Source: Acholoe squamosa (Eukaryota > Annelida > Polychaeta > Phyllodocida > Polynoidae). From it: 64,000 nucleotides of DNA. Positions 3,515 through 60,342 of this stretch are shown here, piece by piece. The notes beneath the pieces are model-generated. The model worked only from the letters and a program-made list of their open reading frames with translations. It searched no databases and was not told the DNA's origin. Each line of letters opens with the position of its first letter. Within the stretch, counting starts at the first letter, position 1. The stretch spans positions 72,265,972 through 72,329,971 of the forward strand of contig OX439040.1 in NCBI GenBank assembly GCA_949317995.1, given 5' to 3'. A program made the position numbers and the translations under genes.

Positions 3515-3884
3515 GCCAGGTAAAGAAGTACTTTTTCTATGTATGAAGCTACAGTAGATGTCATTTAGCTGACCATTGTGACAGGCACATTTACCTCTGT
3601 ATTGGTCCTGTTTCCCAGTTTATCAGGGGCTAACTTGGTCTTTCTCACCCTACCTGTCATGTTCTGGAGAAGCATTCATAGTATTATACTTAAAGCAATC
3701 TGTTGCATTATATGTAGTTCCGTATAGCCCAGACCTATCTGGTCATATATTTAGAGTATTTCCCTTAGTCATTTCCTTGTTGGGGTGGTTTTAGTGCAGG
3801 TGCTTGGCTCAATACCTAATTCTTCATCATTTTGATACTACTGCCTTAACCATTCCACCGTGCATACTGAGGGCAGACGTAAAA

Positions 3885-4110
3885 ACATTGAGTAATGAAA
3901 TTCTGTCAGCTTTGGCCGTCCAACCACTTTAAGGTGGTGAGTATTTTACATTAATGTGATGTTTTGCTGGTTGGTGATCCAAATTGAATCTGAAACAGGT
4001 AATCCATTTGGCTGTATATAAACAGTTTAATGATAAAAGTTGTACGAAATTTCATCACTATATAGGACATTAACATTAACATGCCTCACCCTTCAGGTGG
4101 AACATTTCAC
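3885..4110. repeat. Array segment c, copy 1
   Basis: It contains ATTCTGTCAGCTTTGGCCG, then CTTTAAGGTGGTGAGTATT, then GGTAATCCATTTGGCTGTAT. Diverged copies lie at 20180-20370, 33645-33815 and 52690-52880. Sequence 4340-4450 also matches 20735-20840. Confidence 0.8.
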
Positions 4111-4479
4111 AAAGATAATGATGTAATGATGTGTTGGGCTGTACCTATTGTGAATGTTAAAGGGGGAGGTTAACCCTAGACCCCTAAAGATAGAGGTTAA
4201 AATGTATCATTCCACTGTCAAAATAGGTTTAGTCGCAATGCCTCTTTTGTGTTTTAGTTTGTGTCACTGGTGTAACCAATGTGATTGAGTAACATCTTGT
4301 GGGAAAGGGATAAAGGTTTTACCACACTGATGATCATTTTTGTGTGGAAATCCACTAACAAATGATAAAATCATGGCCTTTATTGATCTATCTCTTTTTT
4401 ATTAGGGCCACGACTAATTAACCATCCAACAGGGTTTTCATTTACATTTTTTTGTCCAGAGCTAACCATTTATATGTAG

Positions 4480-19960: not shown

Positions 19961-19978
19961 CTGAGGAAATCAGCCAAT

Positions 19979-20157
19979 GATGCCCCGCGGGATGGATAAG
20001 GCAGTAGCATGTAAATGATGACAAAATAGGTAGTGAGTGCATTTGTATTATAAGAACTACCAGCCCCACAAAGAAATACCTCATATAATACAAATGCACT
20101 CAATACCTAGTTTGTCATCATTTACATGCTACTGCCTTAACCATCCCGTGAGGCATC
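19979..20157. repeat. Long near-perfect hairpin (74-bp arms, 31-bp loop)
   Basis: The left arm 19979-20052 and the right arm 20084-20157 are inverted repeats with about five mismatches. They share TAAGGCAGTAGCATGTAAAT and its complement. The paralogous place in unit I (about 3838-3860) shows only the start of the right arm (CTACTGCCTTAACCAT). The left arm therefore looks like an inverted copy made inside unit II. No terminal duplication is seen. Confidence 0.85.
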
Positions 20158-20179
20158 GTCCAGGGAGACATAAAGACTT

Positions 20180-22581: not shown

Positions 22582-22812
22582 CACTGAAAACATGGAAGAT
22601 CCAAAACTAATCAGCGGTGACCACTTTAGGTCCTCAAGTTGTTGATAACTAAAACTACAACTTTAGGTAGTCAAAAGGACGACTTTAGGTCATCATCCTA
22701 ATGACCTGAGGTCAACATTTTTACTACCTAAAGTTGTAGTTTTAGGTATCGTCAACTTGAGGACCTAAAGTGGTCACTGCTGACTAGTTACAGATCTTCC
22801 ATCTTTTCAGTG
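22582..22812. mobile_element. Foldback element, 231 bp
   Basis: The whole element is a long inverted repeat. CACTGAAAACATGGAAGATC at the left end pairs with GATCTTCCATCTTTTCAGTG at the right end (one mismatch). Inner parts such as GACCACTTTAGGTCCTCAAG also pair with the right half. There is no coding frame. Confidence 0.85.
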
Positions 22813-28150: not shown

Positions 28151-28854
28151 AACGTAATGTTTGGGTTCAGCCAGTGTTTGATATGCAAATAGATATTTCC
28201 TCTTCTGTGATTTAAATGGAAAATATAGGTATGTGTTTGTGTTATGGGGCAATTCCTGAATCACCACCCTACTTCTAAAGACTGCATTATTCCTGAATTT
28301 TGAGATTCATTACAGCATATCACATCAGCTGTACGTATGAGGATTCTTAAATGGGTTATCTTTTAAATTCTTCACTTGCTTTATGGGAATTCTACTGTAA
28401 ATATATCTTACAACGCTGTGAAAATTCTAATATTGTGTGACATACATACAAGTAAACAATGCACACCATTGATTCACCTGATTACCACATAGAATTCCCT
28501 GTCCATGCTTTGATGGAAGAGCTGGGATCTTTAGATACTGTTGAGAGATGTGTTTGAGAATCTTCTTTAGCATGGTGAAAAAGCTACTTGAGAATGAAGC
28601 AGAAAACAACATTGTGATTACCTGTATCATACCATTTGATCGATGGTGTATAGATGCAGCAAGGGTGCGTAACCTACTATATGGAGGCATTCATGCATCA
28701 TACTGCACCAAAGATTTTCAAGGTTTCACCTAGCTGTGAATACCTAATGTAAATGTACAATATAATCTACTATAGCTCTAAAACATCAAGGATTTTATTT
28801 ATGGCTCAAAAACCAAGAGGTGTGTGATGTTAGCTACAGTGGACTAACCTGCTC

Positions 28855-29075
28855 ATCTACATTAGCTATGTATAGTATACTATTACCTACCTGAGGCTGT
28901 TCTTGTAATGTGATATTTCATGTATGGCAGTCGATGTATACCCTGCAGACCTCAGCCATGCATTTGGATCCAATAGACTTTTGCTCCGGGCGCATGTCAT
29001 ACATTTATAAAGACTAAATCATATTCCTCTTAGCTACTTGTCTTGCCTGAATCTAGAAAATAAATGTAATTCACC
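28855..29075 (-). repeat. Array segment f, copy 1 (exon-like on the minus strand)
   Basis: Read on the minus strand, an open frame of 37 codons (SKSLLDPNAWLRSAGYTST part) ends exactly at a strong donor-like CAG|GTAGGTAATA. Copy 3 (37550-37720) keeps the frame open (SKSPFDPNVWLKSVGYTST) and keeps the donor, but copy 2 has a stop. Most differences between copies change amino acids. A decayed exon is possible but not shown. Confidence 0.35.
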
Positions 29076-30063
29076 AGACAGCATAAGAATTACTGTTTGA
29101 ACTGTATAAAACTATTTAGGCTCATCTTGAGAAATAGTTCAAAATTTTAAAATAGATACTGAGAGGGATACAGAGGAAAGGTTAAATACCTCATGCAGGA
29201 CATTTTCCAACAACTTGTGTTAAAAGTATTTTTCCTTGTGAATATTTTTCTCTTCAGTATGTGTAATAGATAAAAGGGAATCGCTTCTATCCCTGGTAAA
29301 AGGTTATCTGTCTAAAGGTCTGTCATGTTATCCCTTGCCACAAGAATTTAGCATCATTAAAGTCAAATTTACTTCTGTGTTTATCTCAGTACGGAAATTA
29401 AAAGTCAAGTAAATTAGGCACTACATCATTCTACCAATCGTCAGTTGTAGTTTTTTTATCCTAAATGTTCCCTGTTTAGATGTCTCCTTGCATGCCAACA
29501 ATGCGTATTGGAGGACTAAAAGCACATCAAAGGCTTTTGAGTCTGGTTGTCCTTGAGGCTGGTCCACATTTGAAATAAAAAAAGATCTTCAAAAGATTAT
29601 GTAGTGTGTTAGTGATAGAATAGGTTACCAATCAGCTTAAAAAAGATCTATATGGCAAGGGTTTGGAAGTTTAGTGGTTGCTGTGAATAGAGAGGTACTA
29701 GTTTCATGATATGATTTTGCTCCCCGTCTTTTAAACCTCTGCCATCTACCCTATGATTGGAATCAGAGAGACTATTGAAAAAGAAATTATGTCAGATAAA
29801 TCCCAAAATTAATATCACTAATCATGAACACTCCATAAATACCACTCCAATACTTGCACATTTATATGTCCTCAAGCTAGTGTAAACAGATCCTTACCAG
29901 TATATTAAGGTGTGAGACGTTAGGCCATGTATAGCCATGTTCTTCACAAGGGCACTAATTATGTGTGATCTCCCAATGTTATTCACACACAGGAACAGGG
30001 GATAGGTTGCATTGGGGTATTATTGCATATTCATCTTTTTACTTATTCAGCATGTTAAATACA

Positions 30064-30064
<1 letters not shown>

Positions 30065-30135
<71 letters not shown>
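30065..30135. repeat. (TA)n microsatellite
   Basis: Uninterrupted TA dinucleotides at the junction of the two 1.7-kb copies. Confidence 0.98.
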
Positions 30136-30137
<2 letters not shown>

Positions 30138-30552
30138 GAATTCTACTGTAAATATATCTTACAATTCTGTGAAAATTCTAATATTGTGTGACATACATAC
30201 AAGTAAACAATGCACACCATTGATTCACCTGATTACCACATAGGTTTCCCTGTCCATGCTTTGATGGAACAGCTGGGATCTTTAGATACTGTTGAGAGAT
30301 GTGTTTGAGAATCTTCTTTAGCATGGTGAAAAAGCTACTTGAGAATGAAGCAGAAAACAAAATTGTGATTTACTGTATCATGCCATTTGATCGATGGTGT
30401 ATAGATGCAGCAAGGAGCGTAACCTACTATATGGAGGCATTCATGCATCATACTGCGCCAAAGATTTCTAAGGTTTCACCTAGCTGTGAATACCTAATGT
30501 AAATGTACAATATAATCTACTATAGCTCTAAAACATCAAGGATGTTATTTAT

Positions 30553-30732
30553 GGTTCTACCATAGGCAGGAACAGAGGGCATCTTGATCCCATAGAGTTC
30601 AATGTTAACCAAAACGAGGCTAGCAGGGCTTAATCCTGGGATAATGCCCTGAGGATAATGCCCTCTCAGACCAATGATGTTATACTAACGATAATTCAAG
30701 TTAATATACTCAAAATAACCTATGGTAGAACC
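30553..30732. mobile_element. 180-bp inverted-repeat element, inserted after the 1.7-kb duplication
   Basis: The ends are GGTTCTACCATAGG and CCTATGGTAGAACC, perfect inverted repeats. It is absent from copy 1 at 28799, where the sequence reads TTTATGGCTCAAAAACC without a break. Confidence 0.85.
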
Positions 30733-30878
30733 GAAATTGAGCCTGGTATGTCAGGCATTATCCCACAATCATGCCCAGCCCTTGGGCATGGCCAGGGGCT
30801 GCTGCGCAGCCTGACCTGGCCATGCCCTCGGGCTGGGCATGATTGTGGGATAATGCCCTCCACACCAGGCTCAATTTC
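30733..30878. mobile_element. 146-bp foldback element abutting the previous one
   Basis: The ends GAAATTGAGCCTGG and CCAGGCTCAATTTC are perfect inverted repeats. Inside, 30754-30857 is a second long palindrome (GGCATTATCCCACAATCATG and its complement) centred on GCTGCGCAGC. It is absent from copy 1. Confidence 0.85.
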
Positions 30879-30929
30879 TTAGCTCAAAAACCAAGATGTG
30901 TGTGATCTTAGCTACACTGGACTAACCTG

Positions 30930-31140
30930 CTCATCTACATTAGCTAGGTATAGTATACTATTACCTACCTGAGGCTGTTCTCGTAATGTGATATTTAATG
31001 TATGGCAGTAGATGTATACCCTGCAGACCTCAGCCATGCATTTGGATCCAATAGACTTTTGCTCCGGGCGCATGTCATACATTTATATAGACTAAATCAT
31101 ATTCCTCTTAGCTACTTGTCTTGCCTGAATCTAAAAAATA
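30930..31140 (-). repeat. Array segment f, copy 2
   Basis: Near-identical to 28855-29075 through the 1.7-kb duplication. The minus-strand frame has a TAA. Confidence 0.8.
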
Positions 31141-32152
31141 AATGGAATTCACCAGACAGCATCAGAATTACTGTTTGAACTGTATAAAACTATTTAGGCT
31201 CATCTTTAGAAATAGTCCAAAATTTTAAAATAGATACTGAGAGGGATACAGAGGAAAGGTTAAATACCTCATGCAGGACATTTTCCAACAACTTGTGTTA
31301 AAAGTATTTCTCCTTGTGAATATTTTTCTCTTCAGTATGTGTAATAGATAAAAGGGAATCGCTTCTATCCCTGGTAAAAGGTTATCTGTCTAAAGGTCTG
31401 TCATGTTATCCCTTGCCACAAGAATTTAGCATCATTAAAGTCAAATTTACTTCTGTGTTTATCTCAGTACGGAAATTAAAAGTCAAGTAAATTAGGCACT
31501 ACATCATTCTACCAATCGTCAGTTGTAGTTTTTTTATCCTAAATGTTCCCTGTTTAGATGTCTCCTTGCATGCCAACAATGCGTATTGGAGGACTAAAAG
31601 CACATCAAAGGCTTTTGAGTCTGGTTGTCCTTGAGGCTGGTCCACATTTGAAATAAAAAAAGATCTTCAAAAGATTATGTAGTCTGTTAGTGATAGAATA
31701 GGTTACCAATCAGCTTAAAAAAGATCTATATGGCAAGGGTTTGGAAGTTTAGTGGTTGCTGTGAATAGAGAGGTACTAGTTTCATGATATGATTTTGCTC
31801 CCCGTCTTTTAAACCTCTGCCATCTACCCTATGATGGGAATCAGAGAGACTATTGAAAAAGAAATTATGTCAGATAAATCCCAAAATTAATATCACTAAT
31901 CATGAACACTCCATAAATACCTCTCCAATGCTTGCGCATTTATATGTCCCAGAGCTAGTGTACACAGATCCTTACCAGTATATTCAGGTGTGAGACGTTA
32001 GGCCATGGAGGCCATGTATATAGCCATGTTCTTCACAAGGGAACTAATTATGTGTGATCTCCCAATGTAATTCACACACAGGAACAGGGAATAGGTTGCA
32101 TTGGGGTATTACTGCATATCATGTTTTTGACTTATTCAGCATGTTAAATACA

Positions 32153-32153
<1 letters not shown>

Positions 32154-32208
<55 letters not shown>
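32154..32208. repeat. (TA)n microsatellite
   Basis: Second TA tract, at the end of copy 2 of the 1.7-kb duplication. Confidence 0.98.
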
Positions 32209-32210
<2 letters not shown>

Positions 32211-32400
32211 TCCTTTTTATATAACAGAGACGGAATTACTCACATTTTGATGTTTGGACTTTTGAGATCAGAATTGCAACTCACCTAAAGAGGAAAGAGA
32301 AATAAGAGACATAACAAAATGATGATTCTGAAGCTATAGTAAGATTGGATATGACAAAAAGATTGGGTGACCATACATGTCATGCATCTGACTTAACCCG

Positions 32401-32607
32401 TTAAGCGCCACTGATGCAGGAGTGGATGATGCACCAATGAAATGCTGGTGAGTCTGCTAGCCACCATTTTATTGGTGCATCATGTCCACCCTCGGGGGTG
32501 AATCAATCCTGTGTGGTGGGCATGATGCATGAATGTAGCCCTGGTGAGTCTCAATTGATGCATCATGACCAATGAGTGTCATGCATTCATGCATCACTGT
32601 CCCTTAA
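32401..32607. mobile_element. TTAA-bounded GATGCAT-rich element, copy 1
   Basis: It runs from TTAAG at 32401 to CTTAA at 32607 with imperfect inverted ends (GCGCCACTGATGC against GCATCACTGTCCC). The inside is dense in GATGCAT/ATGCATC words and contains GTAGCCCTGGTGAGTCT. The TTAA boundaries suggest a piggyBac-type origin. Confidence 0.55.
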
Positions 32608-37289: not shown

Positions 37290-37455
37290 TCATAGAGGTA
37301 TTGGCACTGGTTTACACCTGGGGTTACATCTGTCTGCATCGCTGTAGAAAGACATCCCCTCCTGCCCCATGCTTGTCAGCCATGGTTAGTCCGCAGTAGC
37401 TAAATGTGATCATTAGCCATTCACCTAGCAGTGAATAGCTAATGTAGATGTCTAA
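37290..37455. repeat. Array segment e, copy 2
   Basis: It shares GGCACTGGTTTACACCTGG, TTGTCAGCCATGGTTAG and ATTAGCCATTCACCTAGC with copy 1. Confidence 0.75.
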
Positions 37456-37549
37456 GATAATCTTCTATAGCTCTACAGCATAATGTACAGATGTGTGTAA
37501 TCTATGGCTAAAGAACCAAGAAGAGCTTAGTGCGCCATGTCAGCTACAG

Positions 37550-42073: not shown

Positions 42074-42792
42074 ATAGTTGATGCCTTATTGTTACCTCTC
42101 TCTCCTCTCAATGATACTTGTCGAGCACGATGATGCTAATATTGATGATGTGCTAGTGATGTCATTCAAGGCCAATAGAGGTATGATGGAATGATAACAT
42201 CAGTATCTATACACATACTCCATCTAATGGCAGGTGACTGGACTAGTACGGTAAAGGTATACAAGGAAGGGAACTCCAAGTATAGTTATGTTGGACTAAA
42301 TTCTTCTTATATAAATTCTATAATGGCTATCACTTAATGCCTGAAGTGACTCAATGACTTTAAAGTCAACCCCCACCTGTTTCCTAAGCCATCAGCCAAC
42401 TAACCACATGCTCTATACCCCTGGAAGTGCTCATGGGCATTGATATTAACTTTCGAAATTGCCATTCATCACTCATGCTTACATATTGTTTATATCCATG
42501 TTAGATGACCTTTATGTGAGTTTATATGAGTTTTTTGCATTATAATGTATGTATTATATATAATTGTTCAATAACAATGTGTATTATGTCCCCTAATCAG
42601 CTCAGTGATGCAATTATAATCTTATAATCTGGCTACCGTTAGAGCTAGACTAGATCTAGGGAGAAAGTAGTAAAACCAGAAACATAGCCTTGAAACATGC
42701 AAAAACATCATGCAGGGGTGCCCAAGGGTCCTATTCTGTTGCTCCAAATTAGGCTTACCAGCTAAAAACCAGCTAAGTGCCTTGAGGCTCTA
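42074..42792. other. Unannotated stretch
   Basis: No gene is visible. The stretch near 42656-42720 (CTAGGGAGAAAGTAGT, AAACATAGCCT, GGGTGCCCAAGG) matches 1669-1735 of unit I weakly. Confidence 0.4.
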
Positions 42793-42882
42793 TGTCAAGG
42801 TGAATATCGTAGTTCCATAGAGAAAGCACTGAACCCCCGTATTGCACCCCTGCGTTAAATAACCCGTGGGAAATCCGCACGA

Positions 42883-42945
42883 TGACGTCATAGCTCCACT
42901 GCGCATGCGCAGCATTTTTGAAACATAAACATTCAAAATGGCGGC
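42883..42945 (+). promoter_or_regulatory. Promoter-like motif cluster CRE-NRF1-YY1
   Basis: Three consensus sites of animal housekeeping promoters lie within 63 bp, in an AT-rich region otherwise poor in CpG. The YY1-type site points to the + strand, towards the hairpin. The ATG inside it opens a nine-codon frame (MAAVRISR). Activity is inferred, not shown. Confidence 0.5.
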
Positions 42946-43060
42946 GGTCAGGATTTCGCGATGAAGACGGGTAAATAAGGGTTTAATTTCAATCTTATTG
43001 ATCAAATATTGATGAATTAGTCACTCAAACACCTTGACATAAATGTAAAGATGAACTCTG

Positions 43061-43185
43061 ATCAGTTTGAGCTTCCTGTTTCTTCACTCGGGTGACCTGC
43101 CCGCTCTGCACTCGGCCTAACGGCCTCGTGCGGAACGGGCAGGTCACCCTCGTGAAGAAACGGTCAGCTCAAACTGCTCATCGTT
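43061..43185. repeat. Long GC-rich hairpin of composite copy 1
   Basis: GTTTCTTCAC and GGTGACCTGCCCG pair with CGGGCAGGTCACC and GTGAAGAAAC. The outer AGTTTGAGCT pairs with AGCTCAAACT. The inner stem is GCAC-GGCC around a TAAC loop. Confidence 0.9.
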
Positions 43186-43418
43186 CACCTTTACCATTTT
43201 CCCTCTGGTCATGATGCATTAACACAGCCCTGGTGACTAACTTGGGGGGATGCTATTGTAAGTTGTTTTCCCTGAATACAAAATGTAGGCCTCTTTCCTG
43301 AACTTCAGTCACTGATACATATCAGCTGTGACGCAGCCACTGTAGTATTGGGTGTTTGAATTAAGTCAATCAGATCTGATCTGCCAGTCAGGTAGTGGTA
43401 TAAAGAACAAAAATTTGT

Positions 43419-50302: not shown

Positions 50303-50533
50303 TGCTAGAATTGAATCTACATCAAGAATTTGAAAAAGTTGTCCGACATACCTGATGTTTACACACCTCGTTAGCCTAGAATATATGGAGCCTGGTGGAG
50401 TTATTAACAGAGAACCATCCTTAGATATCCTATATGAACATGCCATGCCTAATTTCTCCATTTTGTTCGAAATAAATAAGAATCCATTGATTTTCCACAT
50501 CGATACGAGTCGGGACCCGCCCCGTCCGGCCAT
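50285..50533 (-). CDS. 82-codon divergent open frame, unknown
   Basis: It starts with ATG inside the CpG-rich core and continues through the inverted arm (residues MWKINGFLFISNKMEK). It ends inside or beside the SINE head, so its 3' part is probably chance. I see no domain. Confidence 0.2.
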   Translation of the reverse strand: MAGRGGSRLVSMWKINGFLFISNKMEKLGMACSYRISKDGSLLITPPGSIYSRLTRCVNIRYVGQLFQILDVDSILAPVALV

Positions 50534-50683
50534 TCCTTGCTCGACGCGTGCCTGACCTAGTTTTTACATCCGGGTACCTCCCCGCTATATCAACAAGAAG
50601 CAATGGCTGTGTAGCGGGCCGTGTGCGTTGGATCGGTATGGAAAATCAATGGATTCTTATTTATTTCGAAGAAAATGGAGACA
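50455..50683. promoter_or_regulatory. CpG-rich core between inverted arms, possible bidirectional promoter
   Basis: Both arms contain GGAAAATCAATGGATTCTTA (one on each strand), and the core between is CpG-dense. Open frames start outward on both strands and share the residues WKINGFLFIS. No TATA box or known core motif is obvious. Confidence 0.35.
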
Positions 50684-50890
50684 AAATGTATGCGAACACC
50701 AACTAGAGATCGTATATTTGGCACTGCTAGAATTATGGGACTTGACACGCTTGGATTATACATGAAAAGACGTTGGAAAGACGAGGGTATGACGGGTGGA
50801 GTAAAAACAATGGCTACGGTGGATTGGCAAACCGAGCGGATCGCATGCACTTACAAAATGTCTTCTCCTGGATTAATTCTTGGGTTATAA
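50621..50890 (+). CDS. 89-codon divergent open frame, unknown
   Basis: It opens on GTG in the CpG-rich core, passes through the inverted arm (VWKINGFLFISKKMETK) and stops at a TAA two bases before a strong donor-like AAG|GTAAGA (50891/50892). An internal ATG at 50674 gives a shorter version. It has no domain I recognise. It could be a small element gene, a 5' exon read in the wrong frame, or chance. Confidence 0.25.
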   Translation: MCVGSVWKINGFLFISKKMETKCMRTPTRDRIFGTARIMGLDTLGLYMKRRWKDEGMTGGVKTMATVDWQTERIACTYKMSSPGLILGL

Positions 50891-50944
50891 GGTAAGAAAT
50901 TAATACAAAATGGAGGAATATGTTCGATAAACGCTTTAATGCAT

Positions 50945-51044
50945 GTTATGGGTACGCACTCGTGGGTTTATGGGTTAATAATCCACTCGCCCTTCGGGCT
51001 CGTGGATTATTAACCCATAAACCCACTCGTGCGTACCCATAACA
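50945..51044. repeat. 100-bp near-perfect palindrome
   Basis: Arms GTTATGGGTACGCAC and GTGGGTTTATGGGTTAATAA pair with their complements around a GCCCTTCGGGC centre. The only mismatch is a symmetric TC/AG. Confidence 0.95.
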
Positions 51045-51530
51045 TTCATTAAACGCTTATTGTATGTGTTACCACCATGCCCTGTACTATCTACCTGTTA
51101 TTTCATACAGATAAATGGTGCCACATAAACAAAGATGCTCTAACGTGTCCAGGCTAATTTAGTAGCTACCAGAGTGCACTTCGAGAACCACGGTAGAGTC
51201 ATGAGCATCACAATAGTATCCTTGGCGTTAGTGCTTATGTGTATACCAAAGCAAGGTTGGTGTGTTACTCTGTCTACATTCTGACTAAATTATGTGGCCT
51301 TTAAGAAATAATTAGTATACTGTACAGTCCACTGGGCTCCTCAAAACTACAATAAGATGACAAATGGCCCTCTATAGCATTCAGACAATAAATCTCACCT
51401 TAGGCACTGATGAAACCAATCAAGGATAGGGCACCGGGTCCTGCATGGCCTCAGTTATCTTCTATTTCTCAGGTCTTGCAGCAGTGTTGCATAAATGCAT
51501 TTATTTTATGTGAATAACTTCTTCCCGTAG

Positions 51531-51845
51531 AGATAGCATTGCGCAGCCGATCCGCACACCCCCAGTGGCGTAACGTGTGCTGATCCACCACAGCGGCCGA
51601 TCCACCACTGCAGCCTCGTTCTGGGTGCATGTAAACGTTCAAAATGGCAGACCGGTGCTCGTACGGGGAACTACGGTAACAGATTTTGCTAATTTTCAGT
51701 TAATTAAACACTCTAAAAACATAAAATAAATATAGAACTAACCTCCCCTGCTGTCCTCGGTGGCCGATCCACCCCTCGGGGGGAGTCTCCCCCCCTCGTG
51801 GTTGATCGGCCACCTCGTACACCACGGTCGTTTAGTTCTATCTAT
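51531..51845 (+). mobile_element. CpG-rich segment plus hairpin, third member of the promoter-hairpin class
   Basis: The left part is CpG-rich, with GCCGATCC repeated. It holds GTAAACGTTCAAAATGGCAG (51631-51650), which matches AAAC-TTCAAAATGGC-G of the 42.8 and 59.9 kb composites. The right part (about 51732-51844) is a long hairpin: ATAGAACTAA and GGTGGCCGATC pair with GATCGGCCACC and TTAGTTCTAT. No CRE or NRF1 site is present. Confidence 0.65.
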
Positions 51846-58300: not shown

Positions 58301-59941
58301 GCTTATGTCTGGGATTATCTAAAGGCCACGATAAAAGGCTCAAAGAGTGACAAAGGTTGAAGTTTAATATGCACCTTCTGAGAGCTCTATTGAGAGGTTA
58401 ACATCTTCCTGCAAAGCTTGCCATTTGCTCACTTTGTGACTTTCATCAGTTTTCTGTGTATAATTCTCATAGTGTTAACAGAGTGTTAACTTACAACCAA
58501 CTTAAACCTCGACAACTTAACTCTCACAAAAAAAAGCTTAAAGCCTGCCATCTAAACCTTTTTCCATTTGAATTGAGAGAGTCCAATCTTCCCAGCAGAG
58601 TTTGTTCTATTAGGAGCATCACAAAACGAGAACTCCATCACTTTATGCAAAGGTAGTCTCCACGGGGTGGCTGAATGCCAAATTGTCTTTTTTCACAATG
58701 TCCTAGTTCCCACGGGAATTATCAATGGTCCTGCCTTTTATGTGAAGCACCACAGTATGATTCATGAAAGCGAAATATACAAGACGTTCTAAAGATACTG
58801 ACCAGGCTTATGTGTGCTATTGTTCAATTGTTTCTACTGCTATAATGTATATCAAAACCTTATCAAACTCTACATTAGTTTAGGGATTTTTTCCCAACAG
58901 AATTCTGGAACTTCGCAGCATATCTGGGAGCTGGGCAGTTTCAGAATTGCTCTTGTTGTGATATTGCTCCTGAAAGGTGCACTGGTGCATGGTGAAACTG
59001 GTCTATACCCGGTCAAGATACCAAACCTGGTCCATACCCGGTCATACATGTTCCATTAAAAGAGTTCCTTTCTTCCTACATGCAATATCATAAGTGGTTT
59101 CCTTTGCCTTATATTTTTTGCATAATCATATAGAGTACATGTATTTCTCTTAGCCCCCTTCCTTCTCCTGTTTTCCACCTGCTTCCTATCACCTCCTACC
59201 CAAAACACCCTGCTGAGATTGGTTCAAGATGCAGGCCATGCAGAAAAAGATGTTTTAGAGGGCTAGGCTATGGATGACATATGCAGTGCAATGGACTTGA
59301 AGCTTAACAATATTCTATCCTCACCCCCCCCCCCTATTTCCTACAGATTTAACAATCACCTCTCATCTCAGGATATAGTAATTCTGGTTTGTCACGCCTA
59401 TATTATTGATGATCTCTGGTGCCAATCTGGTTAGCTTTCTGAATCCATTGTATTCACAAAATGATGGATATGTCACATGGTTGTATATTCTATACCATGG
59501 ATCATATATGAAAAAGCAATTTTGAACCCAAAAGTGGAGGGTTTATATTGTGGTGGATGTGGAGCTGGAGGGCGGAACGCGAATTGTAAGATGTGGAGTG
59601 CGGAGTCCTCTATGGGGTGTCTCAGGGCGGAGCCAATACAAGATGCGTGGTGACTCCGCTCCATTCAGTCATGTCTAAGCGATGATCGGGTGCAGACGTA
59701 TCGAGAGGAGGTATTCTGACTCCGCAGTCACCACACAACTTCGGGAATGATGTTGAATGGTATTAGCCTAGAGAGTATTTGAGTCCATAAAGGGACGATT
59801 CTGTAACTGCCGATCGTTGAGGAAATTCATGTCAATACACAGGGTTAAACTTTATATCAGTGACTTGTGTCTTTATTCCCATACAGCTAGGTACGGCCAT
59901 TTCCACTACAATATTTGCCAAATGCCAAGTCACACCTATTA
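58301..59941. other. Unannotated stretch
   Basis: No gene is visible. A C-run lies at about 59324-59333, and a small GC-rich part (59550-59720) has repeated GGAGTC/GACTCCGC words. Confidence 0.4.
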
Positions 59942-60342
59942 TGTCAAGGTGAATATCGATGCCCCATTGACAAAGCACTGAACCCCCGTATTGCACCCCT
60001 GCGTTAAATAACCCGCGGGAAATCCGCACGATGACGTCATAGGTCCACCGCGCATGCGCAGTCTTTTTGAAACGTAAACATTCAAAATGGCAGCCGTCAG
60101 CATTTCGCGATGACGATAGGTAAAAGTGAGTTTTTGTCCATTTAATAGATCAAATATACACCCAAACACCTTGACATAAATGTAAAGATGAACTCTGAGC
60201 AGTTTAAGCTTCCTGTTTCTTCACTCGCGCTTCCTGCCTGCTCTGCACTCGGCCTATCAGCCTCGTGCGGAACGGGCAGGAAGCGCTCGTGAAGAAATGG
60301 TCAGCTCAAACTGCTCATCTTTCACCTTTACCATTTTATTCT
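59942..60342 (+). mobile_element. Composite promoter-hairpin element, copy 2
   Basis: TA-flanked TGTCAAGGTG and CACCTTGACA ends at 59942 and 60176, then the hairpin. It carries TGACGTCA (60032-60039), CGCGCATGCGCA (60049-60060) and CAAAATGGCAGC (60083-60094) in the same order as copy 1. The small frame reads MAAVSISR. Confidence 0.85.
60205..60318. repeat. Long GC-rich hairpin of composite copy 2
   Basis: TTCTTCACTCGCGCTTCCTG pairs with CAGGAAGCGCTCGTGAAGAA. Relative to copy 1 the paired GGTGACC/GGTCACC part is replaced by GCGCTTCC/GGAAGCGC, so both arms changed together. Confidence 0.9.

Follow-up and report, generated by a model that had tools for sequence, protein, structure and literature searches.

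A preliminary description of a 64-kb stretch of the Acholoe squamosa genome (hereafter the window) had proposed that a TA-flanked inverted-repeat element carrying CRE, NRF1 and YY1 consensus sites is joined to a long hairpin. The question that this locus raises is whether the promoter-like half and the hairpin half form one mobile unit and, if so, what kind of element it is and what its promoter would be for. Two copies, which we refer to as c1 and c2 (Table 1; coordinates are those of the window unless another stretch is named), align at 86% identity over 406 columns and lie between unlike flanks, which bears out the claim that the composite recurs at 59942–60342 in unrelated surroundings. 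Their common sequence begins exactly at the TA-flanked repeat and stops past the hairpin, at CTTTACCATT. The 12-nt inverted repeat TATGTCAAGGTG/CACCTTGACATA bounds the left 251 bp only, and the mobile unit of c1 continues through the hairpin, of approximately 150–155 nt, to 43196–43198. The three motifs of the proposed element were thus correctly recognized, but its repeat is not the boundary of the unit.

The window's own assembly (1.48 Gb, 63 contigs; L-numbered stretches are pieces of it) was searched with c1, and the best 40 of 2,354 candidates were scored. This set includes c1 and lacks c2 and, being the best matches to c1, favours similar copies. Both halves were present in 40/40, each copy matching query positions 1–406, or all but one base of them, at 92–100% identity, as expected from the earlier suggestion that promoter-like body and hairpin travel together. 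The copies lie in either orientation (19/40 on the + strand of their own contig), and their outer flanks differ, except that those of L011 and L014 are the same. The base preceding the element is T in 39/40 scored copies (C in c1 itself), TT directly follows CTTTACCA in 40/40, and one-base end variants occur in L015, L047 and L048 (at the right end in L015 and L048). A bias extends to bases 4–7 past the element (T 38, A 30, T 26 and T 25 of 40), and the 3' end of the family may lie a few bases further out or the target may be T/A-rich. Both halves, promoter and hairpin, have multiplied together as a single unit whose ends are well defined; the right end is known to within a few bases. No piece of the c family was found in a 200-kb genome sample (L023–L042, from contigs C1–C7). 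The amplified copies rule out a chance cluster of motifs, and the TT that follows the right end in all scored copies rules out a TA-flanked MITE as the whole unit, there being no TA duplication of the Tc1/mariner type around it.

A sister family, I3, offers both filled and empty sites. I3 sits inside a locally duplicated segment, two paralogues of which, at 28781–28840 and near 37500, lack it. The empty sites read TTTATGG/CTCAAAAACC and CTATGG/CTAAAGAACC, respectively, and the filled site reads TTTATGG/TTCTACC...TTCTTAG/CTCAAAAACC (slashes mark the junctions). The inserted 328 bp, with one base ambiguous, comprise terminal repeat, body, inverse repeat and hairpin; I3 is one insertion carrying the whole architecture. 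Compared with the two empty paralogues, this one family shows no target duplication, and its target lies between G and C, or G and G, rather than in TT. The earlier picture, in which inverted-repeat element and hairpin are separate parts that have been joined, gives way here to a single insertion. As 40/40 scored c copies have one and the same junction between the halves and I3 entered in one piece, a chance joining of two halves is rejected. The local duplication measures approximately 2.1 kb within 28382–32223, with copies from 28382 and 30133/30882 and a diverged third near 37420.

Table 1. Features of the c family and of its sister families.
Feature	Position	Strand	Details and basis
Element copy c1	42791..43198	+	core ATGTCAAGG...CTTTACCA; ends as in 40 scored genome copies
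5' terminal repeat of c1, TATGTCAAGGTG	42791..42802	+	repeat search
CRE consensus TGACGTCA	42883..42890 (c1), 60032-60039 (c2)	+	exact; intact in 36/41 copies
NRF1 consensus GCGCATGCGC	42901..42910 (c1), 60050-60059 (c2)	+	exact; intact in 28/41 copies
YY1/TISU-type site with start codon, AAAATGGCGGC in c1	42935..42945	+	
Possible mini first exon of c1	42938..42976	+	ATG, 8 codons, TGA, then splice-donor-like GTAAAT; by reading
Inverse repeat of c1, CACCTTGACATA	43030..43041	+	immediately 5' of hairpin; repeat search
Terminal hairpin of c1	43045..43194	+	four TC/TC 2x2 loops; folding: 62 pairs, -104.8 kcal/mol, z -17.5
TC/TC loops of c1 hairpin	43057-58/43181-82, 43074-75/43164-65, 43088-89/43150-51, 43112-13/43126-27	+	folding
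Element copy c2	59939..60335	+	repeats 59939-59951 / 60167-60179
YY1-type site of c2, AAAATGGCAGC	60084-60094	+	
Hairpin of c2	60182..60333	+	three TC/TC loops and a merged CTC/TCT loop; -92.3 kcal/mol, z -13.1
Second family, I9	51499..51731	+	repeat ATTTATTTTATGT / ACATAAAATAAAT; CpG-rich body; AAAATGGCAGAC at 51641-51652
Hairpin of I9	51732..51841	+	three TC/TC loops; folding
Third family, I7	50452..50919	+	repeat ATTTCTCCATTTTGT / ACAAAATGGAGGAAT (score 12 over 15 nt); ATGGC 50810; donor-like GTAAG 50892
Hairpin of I7	50905..51085	+	two TC/TC loops; folding
Fourth family, I3	30555..30882	+	328-bp insertion; repeat 30553-30566 / 30719-30732 (first two bases in flank)
Hairpin of I3	30733-30878	+	one TT/TC loop, one TC/TC beside mismatch (by eye); read as CpG-decayed
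Fifth family, d	L005 2235-2630		
Further TC-type units L029a, L029b	L029	minus	

The hairpin that had been placed 3' of the YY1-type site exists, but the length of 125 bp given for it does not hold, the arms spanning 43045–43194 with 62 pairs. Between c1 and c2 it differs by four double compensatory and six one-sided pair changes. Its stem is interrupted by two-by-two loops in which TC faces TC. On the + strand of the window, among hairpins of at least 25 pairs, TC/TC accounts for 12 of 90 two-by-two loops; all 12 fall in the hairpins of c1, c2, I7 and I9 and account for all but one of the 13 such loops there, against 0/77 in the remaining + strand hairpins. These four hairpins represent three unrelated sequences. 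Elsewhere the counts were 0/85 on the opposite strand of the window and 2/278 and 2/277 in the 200-kb sample, which excludes an artefact of the folding program; one of the four sample loops lies in a long stem, that of L029a, itself a unit of the TC-type class. Since GA/GA loops are common in sample folds (12/271 two-by-two loops on the + strand, mostly in weaker stems), minus-strand folds are unsuitable for the TC/TC test. The commonest context, by eye, is CAC-TC-G facing C-TC-GTG. TC-type hairpins span 110–181 nt with 40–77 pairs. All five in the window lie on one strand, for which the chance is 1 in 16 if they are independent.

Loops and motifs were counted in 41 c copies, namely the 40 scored ones plus c2, which was excluded from the mutation counts given below. 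The four c loops are kept as TC/TC in 39, 41, 36 and 36 of the 41 copies, and 7 of the 12 deviating loop cells have C to T at an apparent CpG. Three cells have gained a perfect pair in place of TC/TC, the TC of one arm having changed to GA; copying of one arm across the fold would produce this. The c stem is paired in 97.8% of cells, with both-sided changes at 6/62 pairs, and its covariation of 0.059 (0.030 when shuffled) was reached in 0/500 shuffles, a figure that comes from 21 related sequences and is not a probability. As paired changes keep the stem and the TC/TC loops are retained, the c stems either drift in concert or undergo copying across the fold, and the breaks persist throughout. 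Folded as RNA, the opposite strand, which carries tandem G.A, is the more stable in 5/5 hairpins (by 0.1 kcal/mol in I7 and by approximately 10–14 in the others). No description of TC/TC-interrupted terminal hairpins was found in searches of titles and abstract openings in open-licence PMC literature. Pattern scans gave a sole match among viral contigs (L001, unrelated and without an inverted repeat) and none among other genome contigs. The TC/TC rule, and the ATGGC placement described below, look new. The TC/TC regularity is common to unrelated hairpins; the explanations that we offer for it are hypotheses.

TC-type hairpins also share their surroundings. A repeat scoring at least 12 was found at the 5' foot of the hairpin in 8/8 TC-type units tested, from seven families, and on the other side in 0/8; for two of these units, I3 and L029b, the TC-type assignment relies on decayed loops, and without both the figure is 6/6. 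The same criterion gave 4/31 sides in 16 other hairpins and 3% at random positions. TC-type units were otherwise picked as long, well-paired stems, and the test left out weak single-TC/TC stems taken as chance (L003 3096–3191, L029 9139–9266, L032 4139–4221 and, on the minus strand, L032 830–907), together with seven weak TT/TC or TC/TT stems besides I3. The repeats of the sister families measure 12–14 nt, or 15–17 nt with mismatches in I7 and L029b, and the inner one abuts the hairpin foot or overlaps it (I7, L029a, L029b). The left end of I7 is uncertain; at its left part, two 61-nt arms at 50444–50692 make up an inverted repeat that may be a large 5' hairpin.

Within the 150 nt scanned before the inner repeat, ATGGC occurs at 60–95 nt in 6/7 families (92, 75, 95, 75, 84 and 60 nt, with a second ATGGC at 36 nt in the last of these). 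The chance per element is 0.149, and P is 0.0012 for at least 5/7 families, a value that overstates independence in that c, I9 and d share their layout and are not countable as independent cases. In L029a the ATGGC adjoins a stretch that is tRNA-like by eye; I3 lacks ATGGC in its body, where the CpGs have decayed (observed/expected ratio, o/e, 0.33). Around the CRE, c1 and d share 18 identical nt (E about 1e-4), and around the ATG c2 and I9 share a 24-column stretch scoring 36, the maximum of 300 shuffles being 24. The bodies of I7 and I3 matched those of c or I9 no better than expected by chance. The sequences support CpG-rich, ATGGC-containing bodies and the hairpin layout as features common to c, I9, I7 and d. 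Rfam and tRNA scans gave no useful match, and Pfam, run on 15 of the 75 listed open frames, gave no family above cut-off.

As the preliminary description had reported, the CRE and NRF1 sites are exact in c1 and c2, and both copies carry a YY1-type site. The exact CRE and NRF1 matches occur nowhere else in the window, and two CREs were reached in 4/100 shuffles of it. All 41 copies contain CAARATGGC; AAGATGGCGGC occurs in 15 of them, a subfamily, and AAAATGGCGGC in 19. CAAGATGGCGGC, present in one c subfamily, is the YY1/TISU form, and the order CRE, NRF1, TISU resembles that of animal housekeeping promoters. GTAAA follows G and A/G in 35/41 copies, and a donor-like GTAA lies 33 nt past the ATG in c and 32 nt past it in I9, with short open frames in both; we infer that splicing may proceed from this site in the two families.

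CpG o/e is approximately 1.1 in the element body, versus 0.29 in the window and 0.45 in the 200-kb sample. Private mutations strike CpGs 2.5 times as often per site as other positions in 20 c copies (18/1080 versus 47/7100) and 2.0 times as often in 40 copies (23/2240 versus 73/14120), counts that omit recurrent CpG changes; between c1 and c2, 17 CpGs are common and 14 differ. Since CpG sites of the copies mutate 2.0–2.5 times faster, many c copies are probably methylated in the germline, and the faster change argues against permanently open promoters or constant promoter activity. It also led us to reject CpG-island protection as proof of promoter activity. To judge by its motifs, the c body may act as an outward promoter.

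The ends of the elements were compared with those of known transposons. Canonical Helitron1 elements begin with 5'-TC, end with CTRR-3' and insert between A and T, and this class was rejected, the ends being ATGTC...ACCA between T and TT in c and TTCTACC...CTTAG between G and C in I3. Foldback and MITE elements with long hairpins have long inverted repeats; unlike these, the elements described here carry a hairpin at one end only, and the sister family I3 shows no duplication. Elsewhere in the window, very long hairpins at 22582–22812 (101 pairs) and 19977–20159 (74 pairs) have neither TC/TC nor an abutting repeat and probably belong to another foldback or MITE class, and short hairpin units ATGATGCA...TGCATCAT occur in four copies, at 32426, 39240, 39337 and 41892.

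In the parts of the published descriptions considered here, Helitron2 elements have 8–15-bp asymmetric repeats, of which the 3' one is followed directly by a hairpin (PMC3627910), and in their non-autonomous elements the inner repeat is 20–30 nt from the end (Bao and Jurka 2013; PMC3627910). Helentrons and HINEs have 12–15-bp subTIRs and insert in TT (PMC4067079), with palindromes of 5–10 bp and 3' repeats 38–60 bp from the end in HINE/DINE-1 (Thomas et al. 2014; PMC4067079). FoHeli elements of Fusarium have 12–16-bp asymmetric repeats, in some cases ends in ATTTT, an encoded RepHel and an inner repeat about 20–50 bp from the end (PMC5148889). In our elements, asymmetric repeats with the inner one before the 3' hairpin were found in 8/8 TC-type units. 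I3 has no target-site duplication, and the c family may have TT on both sides; set against insertion in TT (Helentron) or after TTTT (Helitron2), c has the T before and TT after reported above, and I3 has G/C or G/G. As far as those parts go, the resemblance to HINE/DINE-1 extends to 12–15-bp repeats, a 3' palindrome, apparent TT insertion (in the c family), a T-rich target and non-coding sequence, and that to FoHeli to asymmetric repeats and ATTTT-type ends, compared with ACCATTT at the end of 19/40 c copies. The same descriptions set our elements apart from Helitron2 by an inner repeat approximately 150 nt from the end, TC/TC-bearing hairpins of 40–77 pairs, the lack of a clear 5' hairpin and the promoter body; from HINE/DINE-1, whose palindromes are shorter and for which they mention no promoter module; and from FoHeli, which is fungal and RepHel-coding and has its inner repeat nearer the end. 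Against described palindromes of 5–10 bp and 3' ends of 20–60 nt, the hairpins found here are far longer. The 5' 45 nt of five units form weak folds (-1.9 to -6.5 kcal/mol) that are not alike, and the 5'-terminal hairpin of Helitron2, which includes the 5' repeat, is not evident.

RepHel genes occur in the genome, with 87 matches to PF14214, many of them in open frames of approximately 2000–3000 aa. The flanks of 2 of these 87 loci (two 3' flanks and one 5', taken without locating the element ends) contained no TC/TC hairpin and gave no match to seven of our elements better than E 0.08; among these loci, no autonomous partner with ends of this kind came to light. In L064, the stretch 3821–4420 downstream of a RepHel match holds a 111-pair hairpin (4166–4420) and a partial look-alike (3821–3923) without TC/TC; this hairpin could be the own end of that Helitron family. 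By structure only, our elements appear to be members of the Helitron2/Helentron-type group.

We favour, as somewhat better than an even chance, the explanation that the c element is a short non-autonomous DNA transposon with Helitron2/Helentron-type (HINE) ends and a promoter-bearing body. The 12–14-nt repeat would mark its 5' end, the inverse repeat would be internal, and the hairpin starting there would form the 3' end. A RepHel rolling-circle transposase made elsewhere would move the element by reading these ends, with the hairpin as stop signal and, in the c family, insertion at TT. As the hairpin is located where Helitron2/Helentron elements carry their 3' hairpin, a role as transposon end is more likely for it than one as cargo RNA. 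The body, consisting of promoter, first exon and splice donor, would probably be what an internal deletion has left of the start of a gene of the transposon itself, given that families related to one another carry related promoters. A copy landing near a gene could then serve as an outward promoter, the hairpin being spliced away as an intron.

In c, the two outer ends make up an imperfect inverted repeat of 15 bp, ATGTCAAGGTGAAT/ATGGTAAAGGTGAAC, with the hairpin foot AATGTAAAGATGAAC as a third related sequence, and the T or TT found on both sides in 39–40/40 c copies could be a 2-bp duplication. Both observations would suit a cut-and-paste composite, that is, a TIR transposon with TT duplication, built of two adjacent MITE-like halves sharing terminal sequence and moved by a DDE transposase. 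We regard this as unlikely: the true ends of I3 are known and do not resemble each other in this way, its insertion shows no duplication, and the junction of the halves is identical in every scored c copy. Helitrons can capture genes, and the body could also be the promoter and first exon of a host housekeeping gene picked up by the element, as the housekeeping-like order CRE, NRF1, TISU and the elevated CpG o/e would lead one to expect. Related promoters stand beside unlike hairpins in different families, however, a pattern that suggests a promoter native to the transposon and fits this better than a capture in each family, and we consider a captured host promoter doubtful.

Were the element instead a mobile hairpin-RNA gene, its promoter would serve transcription of the hairpin, and the RNA with UC/UC loops would be the product, either a Dicer/small-RNA substrate or a trans-acting mobility RNA. 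The ATGGC start is indeed aimed at the hairpin in 6/7 families, the stem is kept by compensatory changes with covariation above that of shuffled stems, and the TC/TC loops are retained in most copies. Compensation is equally expected, however, for a DNA hairpin, the three loop cells that are now perfect pairs fit DNA fold-back copying, and it is the opposite strand that is the more stable as RNA in all five hairpins, if only marginally in I7; we judge such a gene very unlikely. A low probability, though not so low, attaches to the idea that the element end is a new functional module, in which an outward YY1/TISU start is fixed 60–95 nt before a terminal hairpin whose stem has to be broken by TC/TC (tandem G.A on the other strand). 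Transcription would open or extrude the hairpin, or make an RNA, and it would be this, in place of a sequence motif, that marks the end for the transposase. If this were true, the mobile promoter would have a part in transposition itself instead of simply being carried along.

That unrelated hairpins follow the TC/TC rule suggests a further requirement of hairpin recognition or replication. If the preferred reading of a non-autonomous transposon with Helitron2/Helentron-type ends is true, one animal genome would contain many small transposons, each delivering a housekeeping-type promoter, a first exon and a splice donor. This would amount to a natural gene-trap design, with many marked insertions by which to gauge the rewiring of neighbouring genes by a mobile promoter.
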